Below are positions 3,791 through 62,859 of a stretch of DNA of 64,000 nucleotides, one piece after another (position 1 is the first letter of the stretch; each line of letters opens with the position of its first letter). The notes beneath the pieces were generated by a model. It saw only the letters and a list, made by a program, of their open reading frames with translations, was not told the origin of the DNA and searched no databases. The stretch is from Atriophallophorus winterbourni (lineage: Eukaryota; Platyhelminthes; Trematoda; Plagiorchiida; Microphallidae). The position numbers and the translations under genes were made by a program. Location: assembly GCA_013407085.1 (NCBI GenBank), contig JACCGJ010000211.1:18130-82129 (forward strand). Reading direction: 5' to 3'.

Positions 3791-3820
3791 ACGCGTGTCA
3801 TTGGAGAATTTTTCCAATTG

Positions 3821-3919
3821 GTATGAAAGCACAAGCCTGATCCAGGCAAAGTGCCGCACAGTCAGAGATTGCACGTGGGCGATATTACTGTCAGGTTGCC
3901 AAGGCCTAGACAGATATAA
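3821..3919 (-). repeat. SINE-like repeat R1
   Basis: A copy of a short repeat found about twenty times in this window. I define its sense strand as the one ending GGCTTGTGCTTTCAT followed by (ACCAT)n, because the copies vary in length at the other end and carry the short tandem tail here. This copy is truncated just beyond the GTCTAGGCC block. Confidence 0.7.
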
Positions 3920-8430: not shown

Positions 8431-8577
8431 TTGCTTTTCAACAATAAACGGTGTGTCGCATTTTTATGTGGCTTTATTTTCAGCCGGCGCCAGTCTTTGG
8501 ACACATTTTTTAAATAATGTGGTCAATTTTTTAATAGTTTATCGGTTTACCTGAATCTAATAGATCTGCTTCTTATC

Positions 8578-8788
8578 ATGTTTTCTTCTAGCTTTCCATT
8601 CATGGCCCCAGTTGTTTCCTTGAAAGACCTTCCCGTCGAAGTATTTTATCTTATTTGCGACTACCTCTCTTTTTCGGACGTGGTCTCACTCAAACGGGTT
8701 TGTCGTAATTTCAACGCTTGGCTCAACTCTTCGTTTTGGAGAAACCGCTTGTTACGCCTATGCTCAGCACAATATCCTTGTTTGCCAA
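8578..8788 (+). CDS. FBXW9: FBXW9-like exon 1 (F-box)
   Basis: Encodes residues 1-70 with the whole F-box. The donor is CAA|GTTGGT. Reading on without splicing meets a stop at 8833. Confidence 0.8.
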
Positions 8789-11700
8789 GTTGGTCTAGTT
8801 GTTTCCATATGTATTTATCAAGAACAAAATGTTGATTGGATGAAAGCCTGTGCTCATCGTGAACTTTATGTTTCCATGTTTGGTTTGGAAAACTGCTGCG
8901 TCAGCATAGAACGTCCTCACACAACCGCCTTCGGGATCGATACTCTCCACATTCCCGAGGTAGCCTGTGCAGTCCGTTGACCATATCTCTATCAGGTCTC
9001 GAAAGACTTGCTTCTTGTCGGCGATCGTGGGCGTGTGTTATCAGTTTTTTCGTTCAAAACCGCATGTGAATTAGAACATTGGCAACCCGTATTCACCGAT
9101 TCACGGTCACATTCGGTGAGCTCATATTCCTCATCCTAATCAATGCAGTTTACTTTTCATACGTTTACAGTCCTAATCACTAAATTAAAATGCTACATTT
9201 TTATCCAAACTATTCATAACTCTGCTCACGCCTAGAATACCATTCAGTTGTTGAATATTTCGTTGATTTCAGCTACTAGTTAAGCATAGCTGGAGATAAG
9301 ATAACTAGTTAAGCTTTTGGATAAGCTAATAATAGGAATATGAGAGATGGCGTTCCGATTTTTCATATTTGATCAAAACTATTTCTTTGAACTCGCTCAT
9401 TTCATACAATCATCTAGCTGGCAAAAATGCAACTGTTATGTGAGTTCTTAGTGATTTTTCAATACTGGATTTTTTATACAATTGTGATAGAATTGTGAAT
9501 CTTCATCACCGCGTCATGAACCGCGTTGCACGGATAGCAAGTATTTGGCTTTCATACAACCATGACATCATAAAATCATGAAGATCCGAGGTAGGATTGA
9601 ACCTAGAAAGCTACTGAATTTCCAGAATAATATGCACAGATGCACCAGGTTGAAGTAACTACCTTGAATATAACGCGGATTCAATCAAGTGTTGCGAACG
9701 AGTAGAGGTAGATCAACACGAAAGTTTCGTTGGTACTTTCACTGTAATATATCTTAAAAATTTCTTCATAGCATACAAGCCTGATCAAACACTCATAGAA
9801 GAGTTCTATAGCAACACAGCCGCTGAACGCGATTTTGAGCCATGTATGAAGCCATTGTCCAATCCAGGGAGATGGGGAACCCAAACTGGATCTATGTTCG
9901 CTGTCAAGGCATTCATCTTTTTTATTCACTACCGTTTATATTTTCCTTTCATATATCTGTCTAGGCCTGGGCAACCTGACAGTATTTTAGCCTACGTGCA
10001 GTCTCTGACTGTGCGGCACTTTGCCTGGATTAGGCTCGTGTCAGAATCTGGCCACCGTTACGACGTGACCCTAAGTTAGGAGTGGATAACAAGACCGCGT
10101 TAGGAAAACAATGATTTCGCATTCACAATAACAAGCGAAGTCTATGCATTCGACTTGTTTTTCGGTATCTACGTAGCAACCATTGATTCGATTACCTATA
10201 GCTTTTTTGTATTCAATGTTGCCAATTAACTGTAACAAAAAACGCGAAAACGGTTATTTTTGAATACCCGTTTTTGTTTCATGTTTCACATCCGTACAAG
10301 ACAGCGCAAATTGTTACTTTATAAACTCTGCCATTGAGCTTTAGAGACCGAATCCCTTGACGTCACAGATGATTCGAGTTACGAATCTCAACCACCACTT
10401 TGGAAATTTGAGTTGAAATCTTGTTTGAACAGTTGTTACTAACAATGCAACTACGCAAGTAGGTAAAGCAGTCTGCAGCTTCATTTTCCTCTTTGTTAGG
10501 GCTTAGCACAATTTCTGTCGGATCTAAATCCTGTAACAAGTCTTTTCACTTGGTGCATTCGAAATGATGGTTCTGTACTACAAAATCAGTCCAAAGTGTC
10601 CTAAGCGTCCGGTATCAGTACGACTGAATTACATACCCCCATTTCAGCATCAATTTAAAAAAAGAAAAATGGAGAAATCGGACATCATTGTCGGACAAGA
10701 TTACGGGCAGGAAAGTTGACTGACAGGCTAGTGTTCACCCTAACTCGTCCAGAGGTATTGGAGTAAAGTGCCCGAAATGTGTTAACAATAAATTTACGTG
10801 AGATTTCCGTGAATAAGGCACTAAATAATGCATTCATCTCAACCGAATGTAAGGTACTTTCAGAAGAATGAAAGGTCACTACAGCAGGCTGCTTATAAGT
10901 TAGGGTTATCGGCCGACGCCTTTGGCTAAAGCACCTTATTCGCAAGTCATTGGGTTTAGACTATGTTTGTCTGACAGCTATCCGTTGATCTTCACGGGAT
11001 GACTGGCTCTGCTTTCGACCTAAGGACACAACTCAATATAAATCGATGCGTCCCAGAGGTACACAAATCATCACGGAATTGAGAATAAGTTTTTTGAGCT
11101 AATTCAGCCTTCATCCGAATCAGATACGCGCACAAAATGAGACTAGCGAATACCGTGATCTTCAAGTATCTCCTATAAAAGTCAAACTCTTGATTATCAT
11201 TCTTTTTGTGTTTTTCGTTTGTGTAGAACAAACAGTGCTAATTTCACCCCACTCTACGGGACAATTCAACGAATGCGTTGTTGTTTTCACTGCCGCTTAT
11301 TTTCATCTTCTAGGGTTGGATTTGGAGCATCCAATCCCACGGCCACCACGTTCTTACCGGGTCTTGGGATGGTACACTCCGTCATTGGTTGTTATCTAAC
11401 TCCGGATTAGATTCGGTAAATGTGTACAAGTGAGTTCATTTTAATCCTTACATATTTTTCGATTTTTCTACTAGACTAATAATCTTCTTCTTGAATTATC
11501 TCAGACTCTCTGCCCACGTTTTATGTTCCACCTTTTTGGACGCGCAAACGGTAGCAGCTTCTGCGAATCAAGCGGTTCACATCATTGATCTACGTGCTCC
11601 GTCCCGTAACCGATCGGGTCTTCGTCTGCTGCACAAGAAGTCTGTTTTGTGCATGTGTTCCCGGTCGGATCCAGAGAGCTCCGAATACCTGGATAACGGT

Positions 11701-14700
11701 TGGCTTGATGACAACATTTCTTTGGCAAGCGGAGATGTCTCACCGAGCTTCACCGACTCGGTATTCTCGGATGAGTCTCCCGTCAATTTTAATGACGACG
11801 ATTTGCCCGATTTCCTGGTTTCATCTTACACCGAGCCAAGCGAGAATCACGGACACACACAACCAGCTGACGTTAACGTTCCCGTTCCGCAAGCAAATCC
11901 AACGGGTGACTCGGTCACTGGTTCACACACGAGCCTATTCACCGGTGGTAACGATCGCATATTAGCTGGGTGGGATCTGCGAAACCCCGCTCAACCAGTT
12001 AGAAAATTTGAGGTGAATTCTGTGGGATAATCGTGTCCCTTTTGCACCCAGTATCCGTTACGTGAATAATAACCATATAGCCGTTTGATGTGCATCCACG
12101 TTTGAGAGTAATAATATCGAGATGTAAGCTGCTATTGTTCCGAATATAAACGCAAACCTTTGATAATATCGTTTGTGGGAACAGTGTTTTCGCTATAGTG
12201 CCTTCCAATAAACTTCTTCATATTCGCAAATGGTGAGTGGCCTGTCAGAGAGTTCACAAGATGACGACCCAAAGCTCAAAGTAGAGCGTTTTTGAGAGAA
12301 TTGCTGAACCAAATTCGATAGGGTCTGAAGATGAATCGATGGTACATTCCATTCCTTTTCGTGACCACGTGAGGAAGTGCAAGGGCGGGAGAGATCCTTC
12401 ACGCAAACAGCATTTGACCGAAGTTAGTACTTTCAGGCGAAGTTTGACGACCTATTGACCCTCTGAGAGAGGTTCACCCTCAGAGGGAAAATAAAAACCT
12501 TCTCTTTACCACCTTGTGTGAATTCGAATATTTCTCTAGGTCATATTCTTATGCGTGTTATATATGAAGCATTGAAAATGGCTCTGAATGCTAAACAAGT
12601 TGCGCTTGTATGCCACTGTTGGGTAAGGTTGGTACGACCAACCTGTTCAACAGTGGCATACAAGCGCAACTTGTTAACCATTCTTCCACTGTTTCAACCT
12701 GATGAGTGCAAACAGCACGAAACCGGTCGTGGTGTGTGTGCGATGGAGATGCATGTAAATGAGTATTTTTGCTCTGAATGCTGTTTTGCGTTTTCTATTT
12801 GACTCTCGACTGATTCACAAAAGAGTGGATAAGTAATGTCAATTTAATTTTTATCTGCATATTATTATCCTGGGCTATGTGTAGAAAAATTGACGTCTCT
12901 CTTTCAAATCATTGTAAATCATTTTCCGTCAGTTTTCAAGTTATCCGAGGAAAATGTCGTTGCTCAACAATCAAGAACTGTGGGTTGCCGAACCACCTGG
13001 CTCGCTGCATCTTTTCGACGTAAGACAAGGTCGACTTGGTCATATTCACGTGAGTTGCGCCATTCCACTAAACTATCGATCCCGTGTGATTGTCTCCCAT
13101 TTTTCACTTCCGGTATTTCTGCATGCAGTTACGATGTGTTATCGCTCGCGTTTCTTACGCGTTGTTATCCTCAACGTTGTCTCTGTCGGCCTTATAAGCA
13201 GTTTGTTAATTGCGAGTGCAACATTTTTTTTGGTGTGACATCTTCGCGTATGCGGATGGAAACTAGACATCTACAGTGAAAACCGCTGTACTTTTTAACC
13301 ATTCAGCTCACAGCGTGTTAGAATAAAACTTATTGTACCATTTTAAATTCTTGATCATACCGATCACTGGTAACATAACTTCTCATCTCATGCTTCACAT
13401 GATCCGTGGTAACTCCTGGCTTTGGTGATTATGATATAATAAGTGTCGTTTGGAGTTTAGTTTCGCTATGCTGATGCTTGCTCGTTTGCGATGGTTGGGA
13501 CGTTTTAAGAATACCTCATCACCGTTTACCATACCGCGCCTTATTCGTAGAGCCTAGTAGAAGCTGGGAGAAAAGATCGGGTGGCCAGTCCATGACGTGG
13601 TGCGTTGGGATAAAGAAACTCACCGTAGCGCCATGTTCAGTTGGGCGTATTCGTTTACCTTGGTGGGGTCCAAAAGCTCCACCTAATCGTTGGCTAGAAA
13701 CCTTACGAGATATGGCTGCAAACCGAAGTCAGTGGCAGCAGTGTATTTTATTGTGTCATTTTTCAATCCGGTATTATTTGATGGAAAAAAACATAAAGAC
13801 AACACAAAATCGCAAGCAGTGAGACTACCAAAACAAGCTGCATTTGCTTTTGCACATTCCGCTTGCTTGCTTTCCTGTTTTTCACGCGCTTGCTTATCTG
13901 TCTTTCCCGCTTCATATTGCTTGGCACTTTGTCTGGCCCCAGACGTGTGCCTCATGATGATGATGATGCATGAGTGTGTGGTGTCTAAACGTAGAGATAG
14001 AAGAAATTGTTTAGTACAATCAAAAGTTTATCCAACAATAAAATATTTATATGGAGAATGGGAACAAAATGATTTCAACTGGTTTCCATGATCAAATTTG
14101 GTCCCGTTTGTTCAGTATCAACTGCTTTATTGTTCAACCCGTTTTTATCCGGTTTATCGCTTCCCATTTGCTCAGTCCTCAAATCTTGCTGGTTGGACTC
14201 GAGGTTTCGGAGATTTAGTGGCGGTATCTGGTTGCCTCTACGTTTCCGGGTTACATGGAACTGTCCGCGCGTTCCATCCAACGTGCCCTCCTTGTCCCAT
14301 GCGTTCCACGCCCATCATTAAAAATGTACCACAAAGTCCGACAGCGGTGAGTTCAAGATACTGTCTGTGCTGTTTTGAATGCTCGTCGACTGTGATACGG
14401 TCACGCAGGAAATAGCCTTGATAGTAACGCAGCGATTGCAGTTAACACTAAGCCGCTTGAAGGGTAGGCAGCTGCGCAGGTAAATTCAGTTGCCAAAGGT
14501 ATTAAATGGAATCCTTAGGTTTTAGCAACCTGACAGTATCTGAGCCCACGCGCAATCTCTGACTGTACGGCACTTTGCTTGGATGCGAAATTTTGCTTAC
14601 TCAAAGGATAATAATTTTGCTCAAGCAAATATAAAATACGGCCTTTTGTATTCCTGTTTTTAAAGTTGGGGGTTTTCGTGTTAAACAACCGCGTGCATGA

Positions 14701-17047: not shown

Positions 17048-37097
<20,050 letters not shown>

Positions 37098-37299
37098 CTG
37101 AAAATTCGGAATATATGCAGCATGAAAATGGGAAGACAATCATCATCAAGGTATAAATTAAAATGAGGTGATGAAAAATGGCAAGTGGGAATGATGACAG
37201 CTTCTATGTGATTGGCCTGATATATATGTGAGTTGTTTTATGCAATGGTCAAACAGCCGAAAATAAAAGGAAATATTTTACAGTTTTTCCTGGTATCTG

Positions 37300-37730
37300 C
37301 TAAAATAGAATCCAAGGAGAGACATAAAGATTGTTATGGGAGGCCAGAATGCTAAAGTGGAAAGTGGCACACAAACGGGGTATTCAACATGGGCAATCTG
37401 TTAGCAGATTTCTGTTCATTCAGCAATCAAGATATAAATGGTAGCACCATCTGCCCACATTGAAGGATCCACAAGAAAACTGGGACGTTATCAGAGGAAA
37501 AGACAACACAAACATCGACGATGATGGAGAAAAATGTGCTAGGCATCTGAGAAAGACGAGGTTTAGATGCAACCTCCGATCATCATCTAATGACTGCATC
37601 AGTTAAGACAAAGCTGTGATACGTCGTTGATTCTCCGAAAGACCTCACCAAAAGTTCAAAGATGAGAATGCACAAAAGCTCAACTGCGAAATTACGGCAG
37701 CATATTCAAAAATCAAAAGACCAGCGGTGC
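37300..37730 (+). mobile_element. LINE endonuclease fragment (RTE-like)
   Basis: Degraded but readable: MGGQNAKV (for MGDFNAKV), LLADFCSFSNQDINGSTICPH, RIHKKT, and DATSDHHLMTA. Antisense to the TBC gene. Counterpart: 56472-56902. Confidence 0.6.
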
Positions 37731-38273
37731 ATTTGATAACATTAGCTATGTGACCAATAAAAAGAACAAAACTATAAAATCTAACGGTTATTATAGTGGA
37801 ATCGCGATAATTAAAAGCCATGAAATCCTATTCGCGCAAAACGATTTCACTTAAAATAACTACTAGCCAACGACACGTTACGTAAAACGGGGCATAAAAA
37901 TCTGTGAAATTGGAAAAATGAAAAGGAGTACTGAAAGATTGAACTTCTCCAAAACACCGCATGCTATTAACTTCACTAGAACAATCTTTAGAAAGCGTTA
38001 GAAAGAGGATGATCATCCACCATGTTGGGAAAATATCATTATTTTCCCCCAAATCTCATTATATCCTTTAAATTCCTCCGAATTGCTGATTCTCGATTCT
38101 GATCGGCCTGTTGATCGGTTATATTGTTTTCGCCAAAACAGAGTACAAATCCAGACGAGCCGCAGCCTAATAGGCGTTTTGATCAGAGACAGTAAAATCT
38201 CTCCCTGAAAGGTCTGCCTTTGTAGCATTGGGTCTAGTTAGTCTATAGTGAATATTAGTATACAAGTTTGCAG

Positions 38274-38602
38274 TACTTACTTACTTACTTTTTTTGTGCG
38301 GCTGGCTCCCGCGTGGGATTAGCCGGCTTCATTGATGTCTCGGATCGCACCAGCCCACGCACGTCGATCGGAGGCGAGATCGTTTCAGATCGTGATCCAG
38401 TCTCGTTCCCACCTGCGAACTCCGTAGACGGTACGCAGACCCAGGGTGTCTACATCCTCTTTCACAGTTGACAGCCAGGTTTTCACTTGACTACCTTGCC
38501 GTCGACGCCAGGTGCGAACGGGTTTGGGGTCGAGGACGAGTTTTGGAAGTGCTGTGTCTGTCTTTCGGAGGACGTGGCCAAACAATTGCAGCCTTCGCCG
38601 TT
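38274..38602 (-). mobile_element. LINE family Y 3' end, cut by the gap
   Basis: The plus strand shows ACTTACTTACTTACTT at the left edge, the complement of an (AAGT)n tail. The minus strand encodes RRRLQLFGHVLRKT then a C-terminus with VKTWLSTVKEDVDTLGLRTV. Copy 2 has the empty site near 57433. The remainder is lost in the N gap. A related plus-strand copy is at 59470-60320. Confidence 0.8.
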
Positions 38603-39602
38603 NNNNNNNNNNNNNNNNNNNNNNNNNNNNNNNNNNNNNNNNNNNNNNNNNNNNNNNNNNNNNNNNNNNNNNNNNNNNNNNNNNNNNNNNNNNNNNNNNN
38701 NNNNNNNNNNNNNNNNNNNNNNNNNNNNNNNNNNNNNNNNNNNNNNNNNNNNNNNNNNNNNNNNNNNNNNNNNNNNNNNNNNNNNNNNNNNNNNNNNNNN
38801 NNNNNNNNNNNNNNNNNNNNNNNNNNNNNNNNNNNNNNNNNNNNNNNNNNNNNNNNNNNNNNNNNNNNNNNNNNNNNNNNNNNNNNNNNNNNNNNNNNNN
38901 NNNNNNNNNNNNNNNNNNNNNNNNNNNNNNNNNNNNNNNNNNNNNNNNNNNNNNNNNNNNNNNNNNNNNNNNNNNNNNNNNNNNNNNNNNNNNNNNNNNN
39001 NNNNNNNNNNNNNNNNNNNNNNNNNNNNNNNNNNNNNNNNNNNNNNNNNNNNNNNNNNNNNNNNNNNNNNNNNNNNNNNNNNNNNNNNNNNNNNNNNNNN
39101 NNNNNNNNNNNNNNNNNNNNNNNNNNNNNNNNNNNNNNNNNNNNNNNNNNNNNNNNNNNNNNNNNNNNNNNNNNNNNNNNNNNNNNNNNNNNNNNNNNNN
39201 NNNNNNNNNNNNNNNNNNNNNNNNNNNNNNNNNNNNNNNNNNNNNNNNNNNNNNNNNNNNNNNNNNNNNNNNNNNNNNNNNNNNNNNNNNNNNNNNNNNN
39301 NNNNNNNNNNNNNNNNNNNNNNNNNNNNNNNNNNNNNNNNNNNNNNNNNNNNNNNNNNNNNNNNNNNNNNNNNNNNNNNNNNNNNNNNNNNNNNNNNNNN
39401 NNNNNNNNNNNNNNNNNNNNNNNNNNNNNNNNNNNNNNNNNNNNNNNNNNNNNNNNNNNNNNNNNNNNNNNNNNNNNNNNNNNNNNNNNNNNNNNNNNNN
39501 NNNNNNNNNNNNNNNNNNNNNNNNNNNNNNNNNNNNNNNNNNNNNNNNNNNNNNNNNNNNNNNNNNNNNNNNNNNNNNNNNNNNNNNNNNNNNNNNNNNN
39601 NN
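38603..39602. other. Assembly gap of exactly 1000 N
   Basis: 1000 undetermined bases, a conventional size for a gap of unknown length. It separates copy 1 from copy 2 of the duplication. Confidence 0.99.
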
Positions 39603-39742
<140 letters not shown>

Positions 39743-40189
39743 GACGATGCGGGGGTGGGGTCCGTTGCGGCGCCACATCTGAAGAGTCAATGCCCCACTG
39801 AGTTCCGCATCGGTCTTCGAAAAGCACCAATTTAGTTTGTTGTCAGAGACAGAAGAAAAAGACGGCTAACTTTGTTATTTATTCAAGTTACTTGGGCTAC
39901 AAGCTGCCTTCTCGAGTTAGCCATAGCACGACTTGTAGACAGATGAAGCATGCCAGACCCAACGTGGGGCGAGATGAGAAGGAGAACAAGAACAGCCGTT
40001 TCATTCAAGGGAACTATTACAAAAATGTTCAAGACCGAAACTCATGTTATTGCGTTTCGTGATCAAATCTTCCAAAGCGTAAGCTAGAAGAAACCTAACG
40101 TGCCTGATAATCCTGTTGTTACTGCGATGTTGCCCAAAAATGTTCCAAACAGTTACCGGTTCGACATTGCCCCACCACTGCTGCGGACT

Positions 40190-41230
40190 TAGATTAGTCA
40201 CCCATTATCAAAAAGCTAAATTTCAATTTGCAAATGAGGATTATCCTCGAAATCGCCAAATAAATGGGTTTTTTAGCCACAAAGTCAGAACGGCCGTTCG
40301 AACGTCAGGTTCACGGATCGGATACGCACACCTGATGAGCGGCAATAACCGCGAAACCGGTCGTGTGCTTCTGTCCTGCTTTTCGAACGTCATATACTAC
40401 TTATTAATAAAAATCTGACTTTGTACGAAAACTCTGAACCGGTTTGGCGATTCGTTCGGAACGAAATGGTGGAAGTGGTGAGCTACCTCCGCACTCTTGT
40501 GTGCCAAATCATTAACGTAATGTATTGGTCAGTCGAATCTGTTTGGAGCACATGTGTGAAAGGGTGTGTGTTCAACACACACCATTCAACGCGTACCCCT
40601 CTACCGCCCCTTGTACTTCCCCAACGCGAACCGCGTTGAGAAACACAGGTATACAGTCTTGATTCGAATTGGGCACGACTCCGAGAACATTTAGATAAAG
40701 TTCGCAACTGCTTGAGACACGGAGGTTCAACCGTATGTACCACCACCACAGTTATAAAGTGTCACCATAACTCTTTTATCTGGACCAACCAAAAGTTACA
40801 ACGCGCGTGCATAATATTTGCGGGGGATTCGTCTGATTGCAGTTCAATGTGCTTCAGTTTAGCTATTTGAAATATGAACGGAACGAGGCAAAACAAACTT
40901 AGGATGATTGCGTTATGCCTATGGGAATGAAATCAGCCTTGAAGAGTTGCCCCGGTGTTTATATCGGACAAACGTTTAGAGCACGTTGTAATGGAATAAA
41001 CGAATCAGAAGGCAACCCCGGAATTTGAGTGAATATGAATCACTGATGCGGGATTCTGGCCTAGCTTACCACGTTTGAATACCGGTCATCGCGTGGATCT
41101 TGCTAACCTTATAGGGAAAGAATTCGCAGTGAGGCGGCTTAACTAGCCAAAGCTGGTAAGAATTCGGTTGGATGGGCGGTTCTCTCTACAATCTGTCGTC
41201 CGGTTCTGGAGAGGATAAGGATTAATGAGC
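40190..41230 (+). mobile_element. Penelope-like remnant, copy 2
   Basis: Counterpart of 18840-19860, with indels. SCPGVYIGQT is encoded at about 40945-40975. Confidence 0.5.
40326..40368 (+). ncRNA. Hammerhead ribozyme, copy 2
   Basis: The 43-nt core is identical to 18960-19002: stem I GCACAC/GUGUGC, stem II GCGG/CCGC, minimal stem III CCGG. It has survived unchanged although its flanks differ by indels. Confidence 0.85.
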
Positions 41231-41345
41231 ATAACCCCAAGTGTGCACACAGATTAGTTGGGCAGACTCATCGGTCAGTGAACGTTGGTCGCAGCTGCAC
41301 ACAAACTGAACAACATCCCGGGGTATATTAATTGCATGCATTTCC

Positions 41346-41385
41346 GTCCGGCCGATTTTGTGCTGTTTGCAATCATCAGGTAGGG
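41346..41385 (-). ncRNA. Degraded hammerhead ribozyme
   Basis: CUGAUGA and stem I CCCUAC are present, but stem II is mispaired (UUGC/GCAC) and GAAA has become AAAA. Predicted inactive. Confidence 0.6.
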
Positions 41386-41566
41386 ACAGTAAGATCAAGA
41401 TCCGCATGCGCTTGAAACAGTGGAGGAATGGTAAACAAGGACCGCTTGTATGACCCTGTTGGATAAGGCTGGTACGACCAACCTGTTCAATCACATGTGT
41501 GCAAACACATGTTTAATGGGGTAAAACCATGAACCAAAATGCTCATTTGCATGCTTTTGCGTCACA

Positions 41567-41608
41567 CCCCACGACCGGTTTCGTGCTGTTTGCACTCATC
41601 AGGTAGGG
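41567..41608 (-). ncRNA. Hammerhead ribozyme (intact)
   Basis: Stem I CCCUAC/GUGGGG (six pairs including one G-U), CUGAUGA, stem II GUGC/GCAC with loop AAACA, GAAA, minimal stem III CCGG, then UC. Every conserved core base is present. Confidence 0.85.
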
Positions 41609-41887
41609 TAACTTATGATTGGTCAGGTAATGTAAACTTGAACTCTGCTGATACTGATACCATTGATCTGACGAAACTTCTGTCAGAAGCGAAGCGTCAA
41701 CAAAATCTGCTCAAACCTTTTTTATTATTGCAAACTATCTTTCCATGGCTATGAATTCCCGATCGGCCTCAAACATATTCAAATATCTTGCTGAGCTCAG
41801 CCCCTGTTTAAGAGCGGGCATACTGGCATCCGTTCAATGCAAATTTGCACATGTGTAACACCCAAGCGAAAAATTGGGTCCACTCAC

Positions 41888-56269
<14,382 letters not shown>

Positions 56270-57508
56270 CTGAAAATTCGGAATATATGCAGCATGAAAA
56301 TGGGAAGACAATCATCATCAAGGTATAAATTAAAATGAGGTGATGAAAAATGGCAAGTGGGAATGATGACAGCTTCTATGTGATTGGCCTGATATATATG
56401 TGAGTTGTTTTATGCAATGGTCAAACAGCCGAAAATAAAAGGAAATATTTTACAGTTTTTCCTGGTATCTGCTAAAATAGAATCCAAGGAGAGACATAAA
56501 GATTGTTATGGGAGGCCAGAATGCTAAAGTGGAAAGTGGCACACAAACGGGGTATTCAACATGGGCAATCTGTTAGCAGATTTCTGTTCATTCAGCAATC
56601 AAGATATAAATGGTAGCACCATCTGCCCACATTGAAGGATCCACAAGAAAACTGGGACGTTATCAGAGGAAAAGACAACACAAACATCGACGATGATGGA
56701 GAAAAATGTGCTAGGCATCTGAGAAAGACGAGGTTTAGATGCAACCTCCGATCATCATCTAATGACTGCATCAGTTAAGACAAAGCTGTGATACGTCGTT
56801 GATTCTCCGAAAGACCTCACCAAAAGTTCAAAGATGAGAATGCACAAAAGCTCAACTGCGAAATTACGGCAGCATATTCAAAAATCAAAAGACCAGCGGT
56901 GCATTTGATAACATTAGCTATGTGACCAATAAAAAGAACAAAACTATAAAATCTAACGGTTATTATAGTGGAATCGCGATAATTAAAAGCCATGAAATCC
57001 TATTCGCGCAAAACGATTTCACTTAAAATAACTACTAGCCAACGACACGTTACGTAAAACGGGGCATAAAAATCTGTGAAATTGGAAAAATGAAAAGGAG
57101 TACTGAAAGATTGAACTTCTCCAAAACACCGCATGCTATTAACTTCACTAGAACAATCTTTAGAAAGCGTTAGAAAGAGGATGATCATCCACCATGTTGG
57201 GAAAATATCATTATTTTCCCCCAAATCTCATTATATCCTTTAAATTCCTCCGAATTGCTGATTCTCGATTCTGATCGGCCTGTTGATCGGTTATATTGTT
57301 TTCGCCAAAACAGAGTACAAATCCAGACGAGCCGCAGCCTAATAGGTGTTTTGATCAGAGACAGTAAAATCTCTCCCTGAAAGGTCTGCCTTTGTAGCAT
57401 TGGGTCTAGTTAGTCTATAGTGAATAATAGTATACAGGTTTGCAGTGTTACGCATTCGATTAATTATTGCTTGAGTTTATCTCTGGTACAATATAAAAGA
57501 CTGTAAGG

Positions 57509-57660: not shown

Positions 57661-57913
57661 ATATTGAAAATGACAAAAGAAAGAGGTGCAATAGGATAAC
57701 AGTTAAAAATAGAATACAGGGACAGTAAAATAACATTCAAGTTAGGTCATGGCTTTCCACAAGTAAATGAAGGAGTGCATATGCTCCTACCGTTTGGTAT
57801 TCAAACGGTGAAGATGGACGCTATTCTTTTAGAAGCCTCTGAAGAAGGGCCTATACACCGATGACTTTCACATGTTGCTTTTTCAAAATAGGAGCAATTA
57901 ATGATTCTTTAAA
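57661..57913. other. Unannotated spacer
   Basis: I recognise no coding or repeat feature here. It includes CCGTTTGGTATTCAAACGG, a near-palindrome at about 57789. Confidence 0.3.
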
Positions 57914-58118
57914 TAAAACTGGAACAACAAGTTGCGCTTGTATGCCACTGTTGGGTAAGGTTGGTACGACCAACCTTTTCAATCACATGAACCTCCACTG
58001 GGTTTAAAACCCATGAACAGGTTGGTCGTACCAACCTTACCTAACAGTGGCATACAAGCACAACTTGTTTACCATTCTTCCACTGTTTCAAGCGCATGCG
58101 GATCCTGACCCTACTGCC

Positions 58119-58158
58119 CCTACCTGATGAGTGCAAACAGCATAAAACCGGTCGTGGG
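58119..58158 (+). ncRNA. Hammerhead ribozyme, core mutated
   Basis: Stem I CCUAC/GUGGG and CUGAUGA are intact, but GCAC-GAAA has become GCAU-AAAA, changing the conserved core G. Predicted inactive. Confidence 0.7.
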
Positions 58159-58275
58159 TGTGGGTGTGATGGAGATGCATGCAAATGAGCTTTTATATTC
58201 ATGGTCATGGGTTTTAAACCCAGTCTACATGAGTGTGGGCTCATTTGATTAAACAGGTTGGTCGTACCAACCTTA

Positions 58276-58358
58276 TGGTATGGTATGAAAGCACAAGCCT
58301 GATCCAGGGAAAGTGCCGCACAGTCAGAGACTGCACGTGGGCGATATTACTGTCAGGT
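58276..58358 (-). repeat. SINE-like repeat R1 with 11-bp target-site duplication
   Basis: 83-bp R1 insertion between TACCAACCTTA at 58265-58275 and 58359-58369, inside the hammerhead element. Its tail is TGGTATGGTATG on the plus strand. The other end is truncated at ACCTGACAGT. Proof that R1 moves by retroposition. Confidence 0.9.
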
Positions 58359-58447
58359 TACCAACCTTACCCAACAGTGGCATACAAGCGCAACTTGTTT
58401 ACCATTCTTCCACTGTTTCAAGCGCATGCGGATCCTGATCCTACTGT

Positions 58448-58489
58448 CCCTACCTCATGAGTGCAAACAGCACGAAACCGTTCGTGGGG
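58448..58489 (+). ncRNA. Hammerhead ribozyme, core mutated
   Basis: CUGAUGA reads CUCAUGA and stem III CCGG reads CCGU. Stem I CCCUAC/GUGGGG and stem II GUGC/GCAC remain paired. Predicted inactive. Confidence 0.7.
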
Positions 58490-58639
58490 TGTGTGTGTGT
58501 GTGTGATGGAGACGCATGCAAATGAGCTTTTATAAAACTGGAACAAGTACTTCAGCTAAGATATTAGCTAACAACACGTAAAGTACTCTATCAAGGGCAC
58601 CAGCGTCATATTTAAAAAGACGGTACCATCATCATCGCT

Positions 58640-62550: not shown

Positions 62551-62566
62551 TTTTTGTGTGTGTGTG

Positions 62567-62662
62567 TGAAAGCACAAGACTGATCTAGGCAAAGTGCCGC
62601 ACAGTCAGAGACTGCATGTGTGCTGAGATACTGTCAGGTTGCCCAGGCCTAGACAGATATGA
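62567..62662 (-). repeat. SINE-like repeat R1
   Basis: Truncated R1 following a (GT)n stretch at 62555-62568 that replaces the usual tail. Confidence 0.7.
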
Positions 62663-62859
62663 CAAAATGAATAAAAAGAAAATAGAAAAGTGCTGAAGTG
62701 CTTTCGAAAGCTGGTCTACAGAGCACGAATCAAGATTCAAGAATTTATGGTATAAAAAGCTTGTAGCTGTAGAATATTCGTATAAGAAAAAAATCTCTAA
62801 AACGTTGAGGCGTAGGGAAGATAGACACTTCTTGTAGTTAGAAAAACATTCATGTACTG

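Follow-up and report, generated by a model that had tools for sequence, protein, structure and literature searches.

A probable short retroelement with a hammerhead ribozyme and an inverted half-unit cap in a trematode genome

Metazoan non-LTR retrozymes, reported by Cervera and de la Pena 2020 (PMC7229834) from platyhelminths and many other invertebrates, carry a type I hammerhead in units of ~170-400 nt arranged in tandem, with a GC content below 50% and target duplications longer than 4 bp, according to the extracts of that paper used here. Penelope copies, in the extracts of PMC3846280, contain inverted partial pseudo-LTRs (pLTRs), palindromes, and duplications of 8-10 bp. In vitro work on a Penelope-like system (PMC11167929) has shown that the purified protein cuts both strands of the target, extends each of them, and initiates internally on its RNA; the ribozyme cut only with the protein. 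Because ribozyme mutants left insertion unaffected in that system, with zero reads ending at the ribozyme cut site, the hammerhead cannot simply be assumed to act in transposition. Two further systems are close in some respects. Schistosome SM-alpha and W-elements are, like the element described here, short hammerhead-bearing repeats of a flatworm, but they are satellite repeats with a fast hammerhead that makes tertiary contacts (PMC8490949 and PMC6155905, both in extract; the comparison is by description). The dimeric Penelope-like hammerheads of Lunse, Weinberg and Breaker share a palindromic stem III and tandem motifs with ours, dimer cleavage being reported there and predicted here (PMC6466107 and PMC7761336, in extract).

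Here we analyze a hammerhead-bearing insert at 12.5 kb of a 64-kb stretch of trematode DNA (the window). Most likely it is a damaged member of a non-autonomous family of short retroelements, of the metazoan retrozyme or Penelope pseudo-LTR kind, and it is equipped with an inverted half-unit cap, for which we propose a dual-priming cycle.

Architecture of the insert and its relatives in the window

A preliminary description had placed at 12.5 kb a 178-bp insert within a 12-bp target-site duplication, composed of a perfect 28-bp hairpin, an inner 8-bp hairpin, and a hammerhead core. Recomputation recovered all of these parts, which, together with the results of the unit alignment, are as follows.

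12581..12592, plus strand: left target-site duplication GCTCTGAATGCT (chance, 3/20,000 random segments)
12593-12770: insert, 178 bp between the 12-bp repeats, opening with the hairpin and closing with the hammerhead core and a T-rich end
12593..12650, minus strand: 5' half of the unit in inverted orientation, comprising the left hairpin arm and the inner palindrome, from the unit alignment, without the ribozyme
12648..12770, plus strand: direct unit copy, 5'-truncated and with a 31-nt internal deletion, from alignment against units 58a, 58b, and 41b
12699..12728, plus strand: hammerhead catalytic core (CTGATGA, 4-bp stem II, GAAA, CCGG, TC), with a stem I of 2 bp
12771..12782, plus strand: right target-site duplication GCTCTGAATGCT

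The two direct repeats of GCTCTGAATGCT are 100% identical at a spacing of 190, and a string of at least 12 nt common to both 30-nt flanks was found for 3 out of 20,000 random 178-bp segments of the same window, which bears out the claimed duplication. The hairpin arms (12594-12621 and 12648-12675) pair perfectly over 28 bp, or over 36 nt at 94% in a second inverted-repeat comparison, and the inner stem, AGGTTGGT/ACCAACCT, measures 8 bp. An inverted-repeat search of the 64 kb (minimum 20 nt, copies no more than 400 nt apart) returned 8 pairs, of which 3 lie within the 58-kb copy described below, 1 is the 12.5-kb hairpin, and the 4 others are of 20-23 nt and 74-80% identity.

The insert had also been assigned to an intron of an F-box gene. 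An F-box domain is present at 8518-8832 (Pfam F-box-like, E = 1e-8), and GT..AG ends in phase 0 are seen at 12013 and 12932 between two open frames; from these we infer a 920-bp intron that holds the insert, on the same strand as the exon with the F-box. The domain and the splice ends were thus observed, while the placement in an F-box gene is a reading of the frames, in which the frame preceding the intron (11434-12027) and the F-box exon (8518-8832) would form one gene. Frame 11434-12027 has no Pfam match, and none of its 64 candidate relatives was accepted.

As the preliminary description had stated, the element recurs at 58 kb with a different target duplication.

57913..57927, plus strand: left target-site duplication, 15 bp, ATAAAACTGGAACAA, its last two bases also fitting the element
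57926..58018, minus strand: inverted 5' half of the unit, with a 56-nt arm, 95% complementary
58014..58197, plus strand: first direct unit (58a), with a mutated core at 58124 (CGAAAC to TAAAAC)
58198..58531, plus strand: second direct unit (58b), with a mutated core at 58454 (CTGATGA to CTCATGA, GGTC to GTTC), interrupted by a nested repeat
58276..58359, plus strand: nested short repeat interrupting 58b, bordered by a separate 10-bp duplication, ACCAACCTTA (58266-58275, 58360-58369)
58532..58546, plus strand: right target-site duplication, 15 bp, ATAAAACTGGAACAA

A 12-nt flank match was found in 0/20,000 random 608-bp segments. The nested repeat (58281-58364 in this comparison) is one copy of a short repeat, ~85-110 bp long, that occurs many times in the window on both strands, for example at 3819-3902, 24739-24851, 31051-31158, and 62564-62679.

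The third copy lies at 41 kb.

41302..41605, minus strand: third copy, with two cores 223 nt apart; some flank bases are included
41567..41608, minus strand: best-preserved ribozyme of the family, with a stem I of 6-8 bp, the 8-bp version lying partly in the flank

Here, the profile described below matches 41328-41534 and 41536-41612, and the second unit lacks the GAGCTTTT end. The copy has no inverted cap, and comparison of the flanks and of the paralogous site (~19925-19945), from which the element is absent, reveals no visible target duplication. As a clean filled/empty pair the locus is usable only in part: because no duplication is seen and some target bases differ, loss from one duplicate is as possible as gain in the other. 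The paralogy reflects a stretch of ~20 kb that is repeated directly in pieces (18478-38274 versus 39796-57446, 84-98% identity) across a gap of 1000 N (38603-39602), and that is either a real duplication or two haplotypes placed consecutively by the assembler. Beside the gap, at ~39603-39780, glycine-codon runs on the plus strand and proline-codon runs on the minus strand, in several frames, amount to a G-rich simple repeat.

A profile built from the units matches the three loci, at 12.5 kb (plus), 41 kb (minus), and 58 kb (plus); the family is accordingly defined by three loci in one 64-kb window, the same three from which the profile was built. Next in rank come the cores of a second ribozyme family, at 40.3 kb (E = 0.006) and 18.9 kb (E = 0.007), followed by matches with E of at least 0.067. 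Across the three loci, the alignment shows that the unit opens with a variable 5' part, followed by the palindrome GGTTGGTCGTACCAACC and a conserved middle; after the hammerhead comes a tail, at most ~50 nt long, that ends in GAGCTTTT or a variant. The hammerhead, near the 3' end of the unit, is of type I with a vestigial stem III (ACCGGT). Core-to-core spacings put the native unit at ~223-236 nt: the 41-kb cores are 223 nt apart and the 58-kb cores 330 nt, or 236 nt once the 94-nt nested insertion (the repeat of 84 nt together with a single copy of the 10-bp duplication) is subtracted. Partial tandem units are thus seen at 2 of the 3 loci (41 and 58 kb), the 12.5-kb locus not being dimeric.

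The 178 bp of the 12.5-kb insert had been taken for the unit itself. This can be ruled out, since 31 nt present in all 3 other units that cover the stretch (58a, 58b, and 41b) are missing at 12.5 kb, between 12696 and 12697 (uncertain by ~1 base), and with them the 5' strand of stem I. Judged from the alignment, the 12.5-kb copy is a deletion derivative of the ~223-236-nt unit. No match was returned from viral or prokaryote contigs in scans for the exact pattern.

Ribozyme cores and their predicted cleavage

The 12.5-kb core reads CTGATGA-GTGC-AAACA-GCAC-GAAA-CCGG-TC. A descriptor written from the known hammerhead motif, placing no demand on stem I, hits the window at 12699, 18966, 40332, and, on the minus strand, 41602; these 4 sites compare with an average of 0.025 over 40 first-order Markov randomisations. 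When a stem I of at least 4 bp is required, 3 sites are kept, 2 of which are the same insertion in duplicated DNA, and the 12.5-kb copy is lost. The hammerhead claimed for the latter is therefore present as a core motif, but with a stem I of only 2 bp.

Of the 5 family cores, 1 combines an intact core with a stem I of at least 4 bp, namely 41602 (minus), the first of the 41-kb pair. The second of that pair and the two at 58 kb have changes in the core, and GAAA-CCGG-TC, with its reduced stem III, is present in the 12.5-kb and first 41-kb cores. Rfam calls nothing in the window at gathering scores. Under relaxed thresholds on short chosen stretches, to which the following sub-gathering scores apply, the first 41-kb core reaches 32.9 bits with Hammerhead_1 (gathering 34; E = 1.3e-6 for a 341-base search), the 58-kb cores 21.0 and 18.4 bits with the same model (gathering 34), and the 12.5-kb core 19.4 bits with HH9 (gathering 52; E = 0.028 in a chosen 401-bp stretch).

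The 31 nt deleted at 12.5 kb carry CCCTA, which is part of the stem I 5' strand, and the outer GCATGCG, which base-pairs with the tail when the 58-kb units are folded. Because this loss leaves 2 bp of stem I, the 12.5-kb ribozyme is probably inactive and is predicted not to cleave. Forcing the hammerhead shape costs +3.1 kcal/mol for this core versus -6.6 for the 41-kb core.

The second hammerhead family, at 18966-18996 and 40332-40362 (both plus), has a different stem II and a perfect 6-bp stem I, with the same ACCGGT stem III. Its cores were considered as members of the 12.5-kb family and rejected, as their stem II and surroundings differ; since 18478-38274 and 39796-57446 are repeated, the two represent one insertion seen twice. 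The 18.9-kb site scores 46.2 bits with HH9 (gathering 52; E = 3.1e-11 for a 181-base search), and the 40.3-kb core is flanked by CAAAGTCAGA and TCTGACTTTG, its possible ends.

The hammerhead is not the minimum-energy fold of the monomer. Only CCGG lies between GAAA and TC, which is too short for a hairpin, and ACCGGU is self-complementary. When cofolded, the 18.9-kb second-family ribozyme adopts a double-hammerhead pattern with a 6-bp ACCGGU stem III at a small gain in energy (-37.9 versus 2 x -17.9 kcal/mol), and the 41-kb core shows a larger gain with a less clean shape (-34.1 versus 2 x -14.7 kcal/mol). These models suggest that the ACCGGT stem III suits cleavage as a dimer, the cleavage itself being predicted. 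Dimeric cleavage of such hammerheads is described for newt, viroid, and Penelope-like RNAs in the extracts of PMC6155905, PMC6466107, and PMC7761336.

Structure and origin of the inverted cap

In the preliminary description, a hairpin is joined to a hammerhead core. The hairpin proves to be no module of its own: the left arm is the reverse complement of the unit from position ~110 (58-kb second-unit numbering) back towards the unit start, and the inner 8-bp hairpin is the unit's own palindrome. On the strength of the alignment, the 12.5-kb hairpin is a head-to-head inverted copy of the front half of the unit, without the ribozyme, hereafter the cap. Hairpin and ribozyme had been held to move as one piece; they go together at 12.5 and 58 kb, where the cap lies inside the target duplications, but the 41-kb copy (1 of the 3 loci) has two cores and no hairpin, which goes part of the way towards independent boundaries for the two. 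Nor is the arrangement unrecorded, as had been supposed: head-to-head inverted 5' copies with junction palindromes and short target duplications are described for Penelope pseudo-LTRs in the extracts of PMC3846280.

A long near-perfect hairpin would also suit a foldback or MITE-type DNA transposon or a microRNA precursor, and several Rfam microRNA models match the hairpins here, all below gathering: mir-5880 at 37.9 (gathering 97) in the 12.5-kb stretch, and MIR474 at 42 (gathering 48) and mir-552 at 43.2 (gathering 100) in the 58-kb stretch, with no microRNA family above its gathering score in the Rfam search of the hairpin stretches. However, these matches fall in unrelated families, as expected of a long hairpin, and a foldback element is at odds with an inverted arm at one end alone, a 3' end made of ribozyme and tail, and an arm that copies the element's own interior. 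We consider an origin of either kind extremely improbable.

At 12.5 and 58 kb, the cap's outer end falls at the same unit position within ~1-3 nt, and the inverted arms are 98% identical over 57 nt; the inner joins differ. Inspected by eye, the inverted and direct copies have CAA in common at 12.5 kb (the last 3 bases of the inverted copy 12593..12650 recurring in the direct copy) and TGAAC at 58 kb if 41b serves as the template; if 58b does, the overlap drops to no base at 12.5 kb and one at 58 kb. Beside the inverted arm, the 12.5-kb target reads GAATGCT where the unit has GAATGGT, a match at 6 of 7 bases that was noticed post hoc and whose level is reached at 202 of 125,974 window positions. 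At 58 kb, agreement between target and unit at the cap end is limited to AA.

These observations bear on whether the cap arises anew at insertion or is, in line with the preliminary description, an inherited part of one master element copied whole, in which case the 12.5-kb copy would later have lost part of the loop. The two readings part solely on how the cap arises. Formation at insertion is favoured by the 6-of-7 match at 12.5 kb and by the in vitro activity of the Penelope-like protein on both strands, with starts inside its RNA (PMC11167929), and disfavoured by the 58-kb target, with its AA only. The near-coincidence of the arm starts and the similarity of the arms fit inheritance, as does the fact that, with a 41b-type template, the 12.5-kb junction equals a 58-kb-type hairpin minus one deletion between CAA repeats. 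Against it stand the 41-kb copy, which has cores but no cap, the unlike inner joins, and the arms themselves, in which no change sets the two caps apart from direct units, although the sites are too few to decide. An inherited cap thus seems possible but rather unlikely to us.

Relation to known elements and a proposed insertion cycle

With metazoan retrozymes, the element shares a type I hammerhead, recognized in 1 of the 5 cores (41602, minus) and broken in stem I at 12.5 kb; tandem units within a range of ~150-450 bp (223 and 236 nt, with partial dimers at 2 of the 3 loci); target duplications of more than 4 bp (12 bp at 12.5 kb and 15 bp at 58 kb, none being seen at 41 kb); and a GC content below 50% (0.44-0.49 in the aligned pieces) without coding capacity. 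It differs in its vestigial stem III, whereas in the retrozyme work most invertebrate hammerheads cleave well as monomers and the vertebrate ones need dimers, and in the head-to-head inverted half-unit cap, which goes unmentioned for retrozymes in the extracts of PMC7229834. Expression as linear and circular RNA, a further retrozyme trait, is a prediction for this element.

The likeness to Penelope pseudo-LTRs extends to the hammerhead and to insertions ending shortly past the ribozyme (PMC11167929), to the partial tandem, inverted partial 5' copy, palindrome, and short target duplications (PMC3846280, in extract), and to the reduced stem III (PMC6155905 and PMC7761336, in extract). An inverted partial pLTR at the 5' end within target duplications has its counterpart at 2 of the 3 loci, here without the ribozyme half of the unit. 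The inverted part differs, however, in beginning mid-unit and lacking the ribozyme: the inverted pLTR of A. vaga can bear a 31-bp tail at its 3' end and is just slightly shorter than the full pLTR, in the extracts of PMC3846280. The same combination of a hammerhead without stem III, partial tandem, inverted 5' partial copy, palindrome, and short target duplications (PMC3846280, PMC6155905, and PMC7761336, in extract) could also mark the copies as fragments of a full Penelope-like element, with an autonomous family of this genome contributing its pseudo-LTRs singly or in tandem, rather than as a separate non-autonomous family. Yet the units have no reverse transcriptase ORF between them, nor would one fit into the 223 and 330 nt that separate paired cores. 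Four frames of at least 70 codons overlap the 41- and 58-kb copies, and the one scanned has no Pfam match. We take this alternative seriously, while judging it the less probable of the two.

A SINE moved by a LINE, its hammerhead owed to descent from an older satellite, is a further candidate. Duplications of 12-15 bp and T-rich 3' ends, both seen at two loci, fit LINE-type insertion, and the window contains RVT_1 fragments. The element, however, has tandem ribozyme units and a head-to-head inverted cap, both to our knowledge foreign to SINEs. The RNA polymerase III promoter of a SINE derives from tRNA, 5S, or 7SL RNA; ARAGORN, run with the bacterial code, calls no tRNA in the window. We hold this origin to be unlikely.

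For the preferred reading, a short non-autonomous retroelement, the mobilizer is probably a Penelope-type reverse transcriptase, an enzyme of telomerase-like type that usually comes with a GIY-YIG endonuclease. A Pfam scan of 10 window ORFs yielded RVT_1 in 4, one of them under its cut-off, and no Penelope reverse transcriptase or GIY-YIG domain; another retroelement could therefore be the mobilizer. One reverse transcriptase ORF (26945-27919, plus; RVT_1 and DUF6451) is 78% identical to a protein of the snail Littorina and 85% to a nameless protein, with weaker schistosome matches. Among the best 120 of its 1,762 relatives, snails rank top among those named, and schistosomes, fish, and coral rank lower, a pattern that may reflect host-parasite transfer or simply the group of the window's own organism. 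The other reverse transcriptase ORF searched gave 5 matches.

In the cycle that we propose, a multimeric transcript would be cut by hammerhead pairs sharing an extended ACCGGU stem III. A reverse transcriptase acting in trans, most likely Penelope-like, would nick both strands of the target; the main cDNA would start from the 3' tail, and the other target strand would prime a second one internally, following CTTGTTT (position ~110 of the unit). Joining of the two antisense cDNAs would leave an inverted 5' half-unit head-to-head with a direct copy, inside target duplications of 12-15 bp, and the 12.5-kb copy would then have lost the 5' strand of stem I with the 31-nt deletion. This two-primer reading differs from the self-priming on an antisense template that the authors of PMC3846280 preferred, according to the extracts of their paper. 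For the Anolis Penelope-like protein, the start site is equal for both strands, and the starts are not homologous to the target (PMC11167929); by analogy, these data count against two primers, as the cycle assumes two priming sites ~130 nt apart.

The almost constant outer cap end may mark a second, sequence-defined priming site in the RNA, one enzyme complex extending, at every insertion, both target strands on a single RNA from two set points, an idea that we put forward as speculative and, on balance, doubtful. If true, the element would naturally document target-primed reverse transcription from both strands on a hammerhead RNA, and the cap would be a regular 5' hairpin that lacks the ribozyme. 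What had appeared to be a new mobile element of ribozyme plus hairpin becomes a readable insertion record of a known class. Routine priming from both target strands is a step still awaiting validation after the 2024 in vitro study (PMC11167929), and many copies with a common outer cap end and varied inner joins would test from sequence whether Penelope-type enzymes routinely prime in this way.
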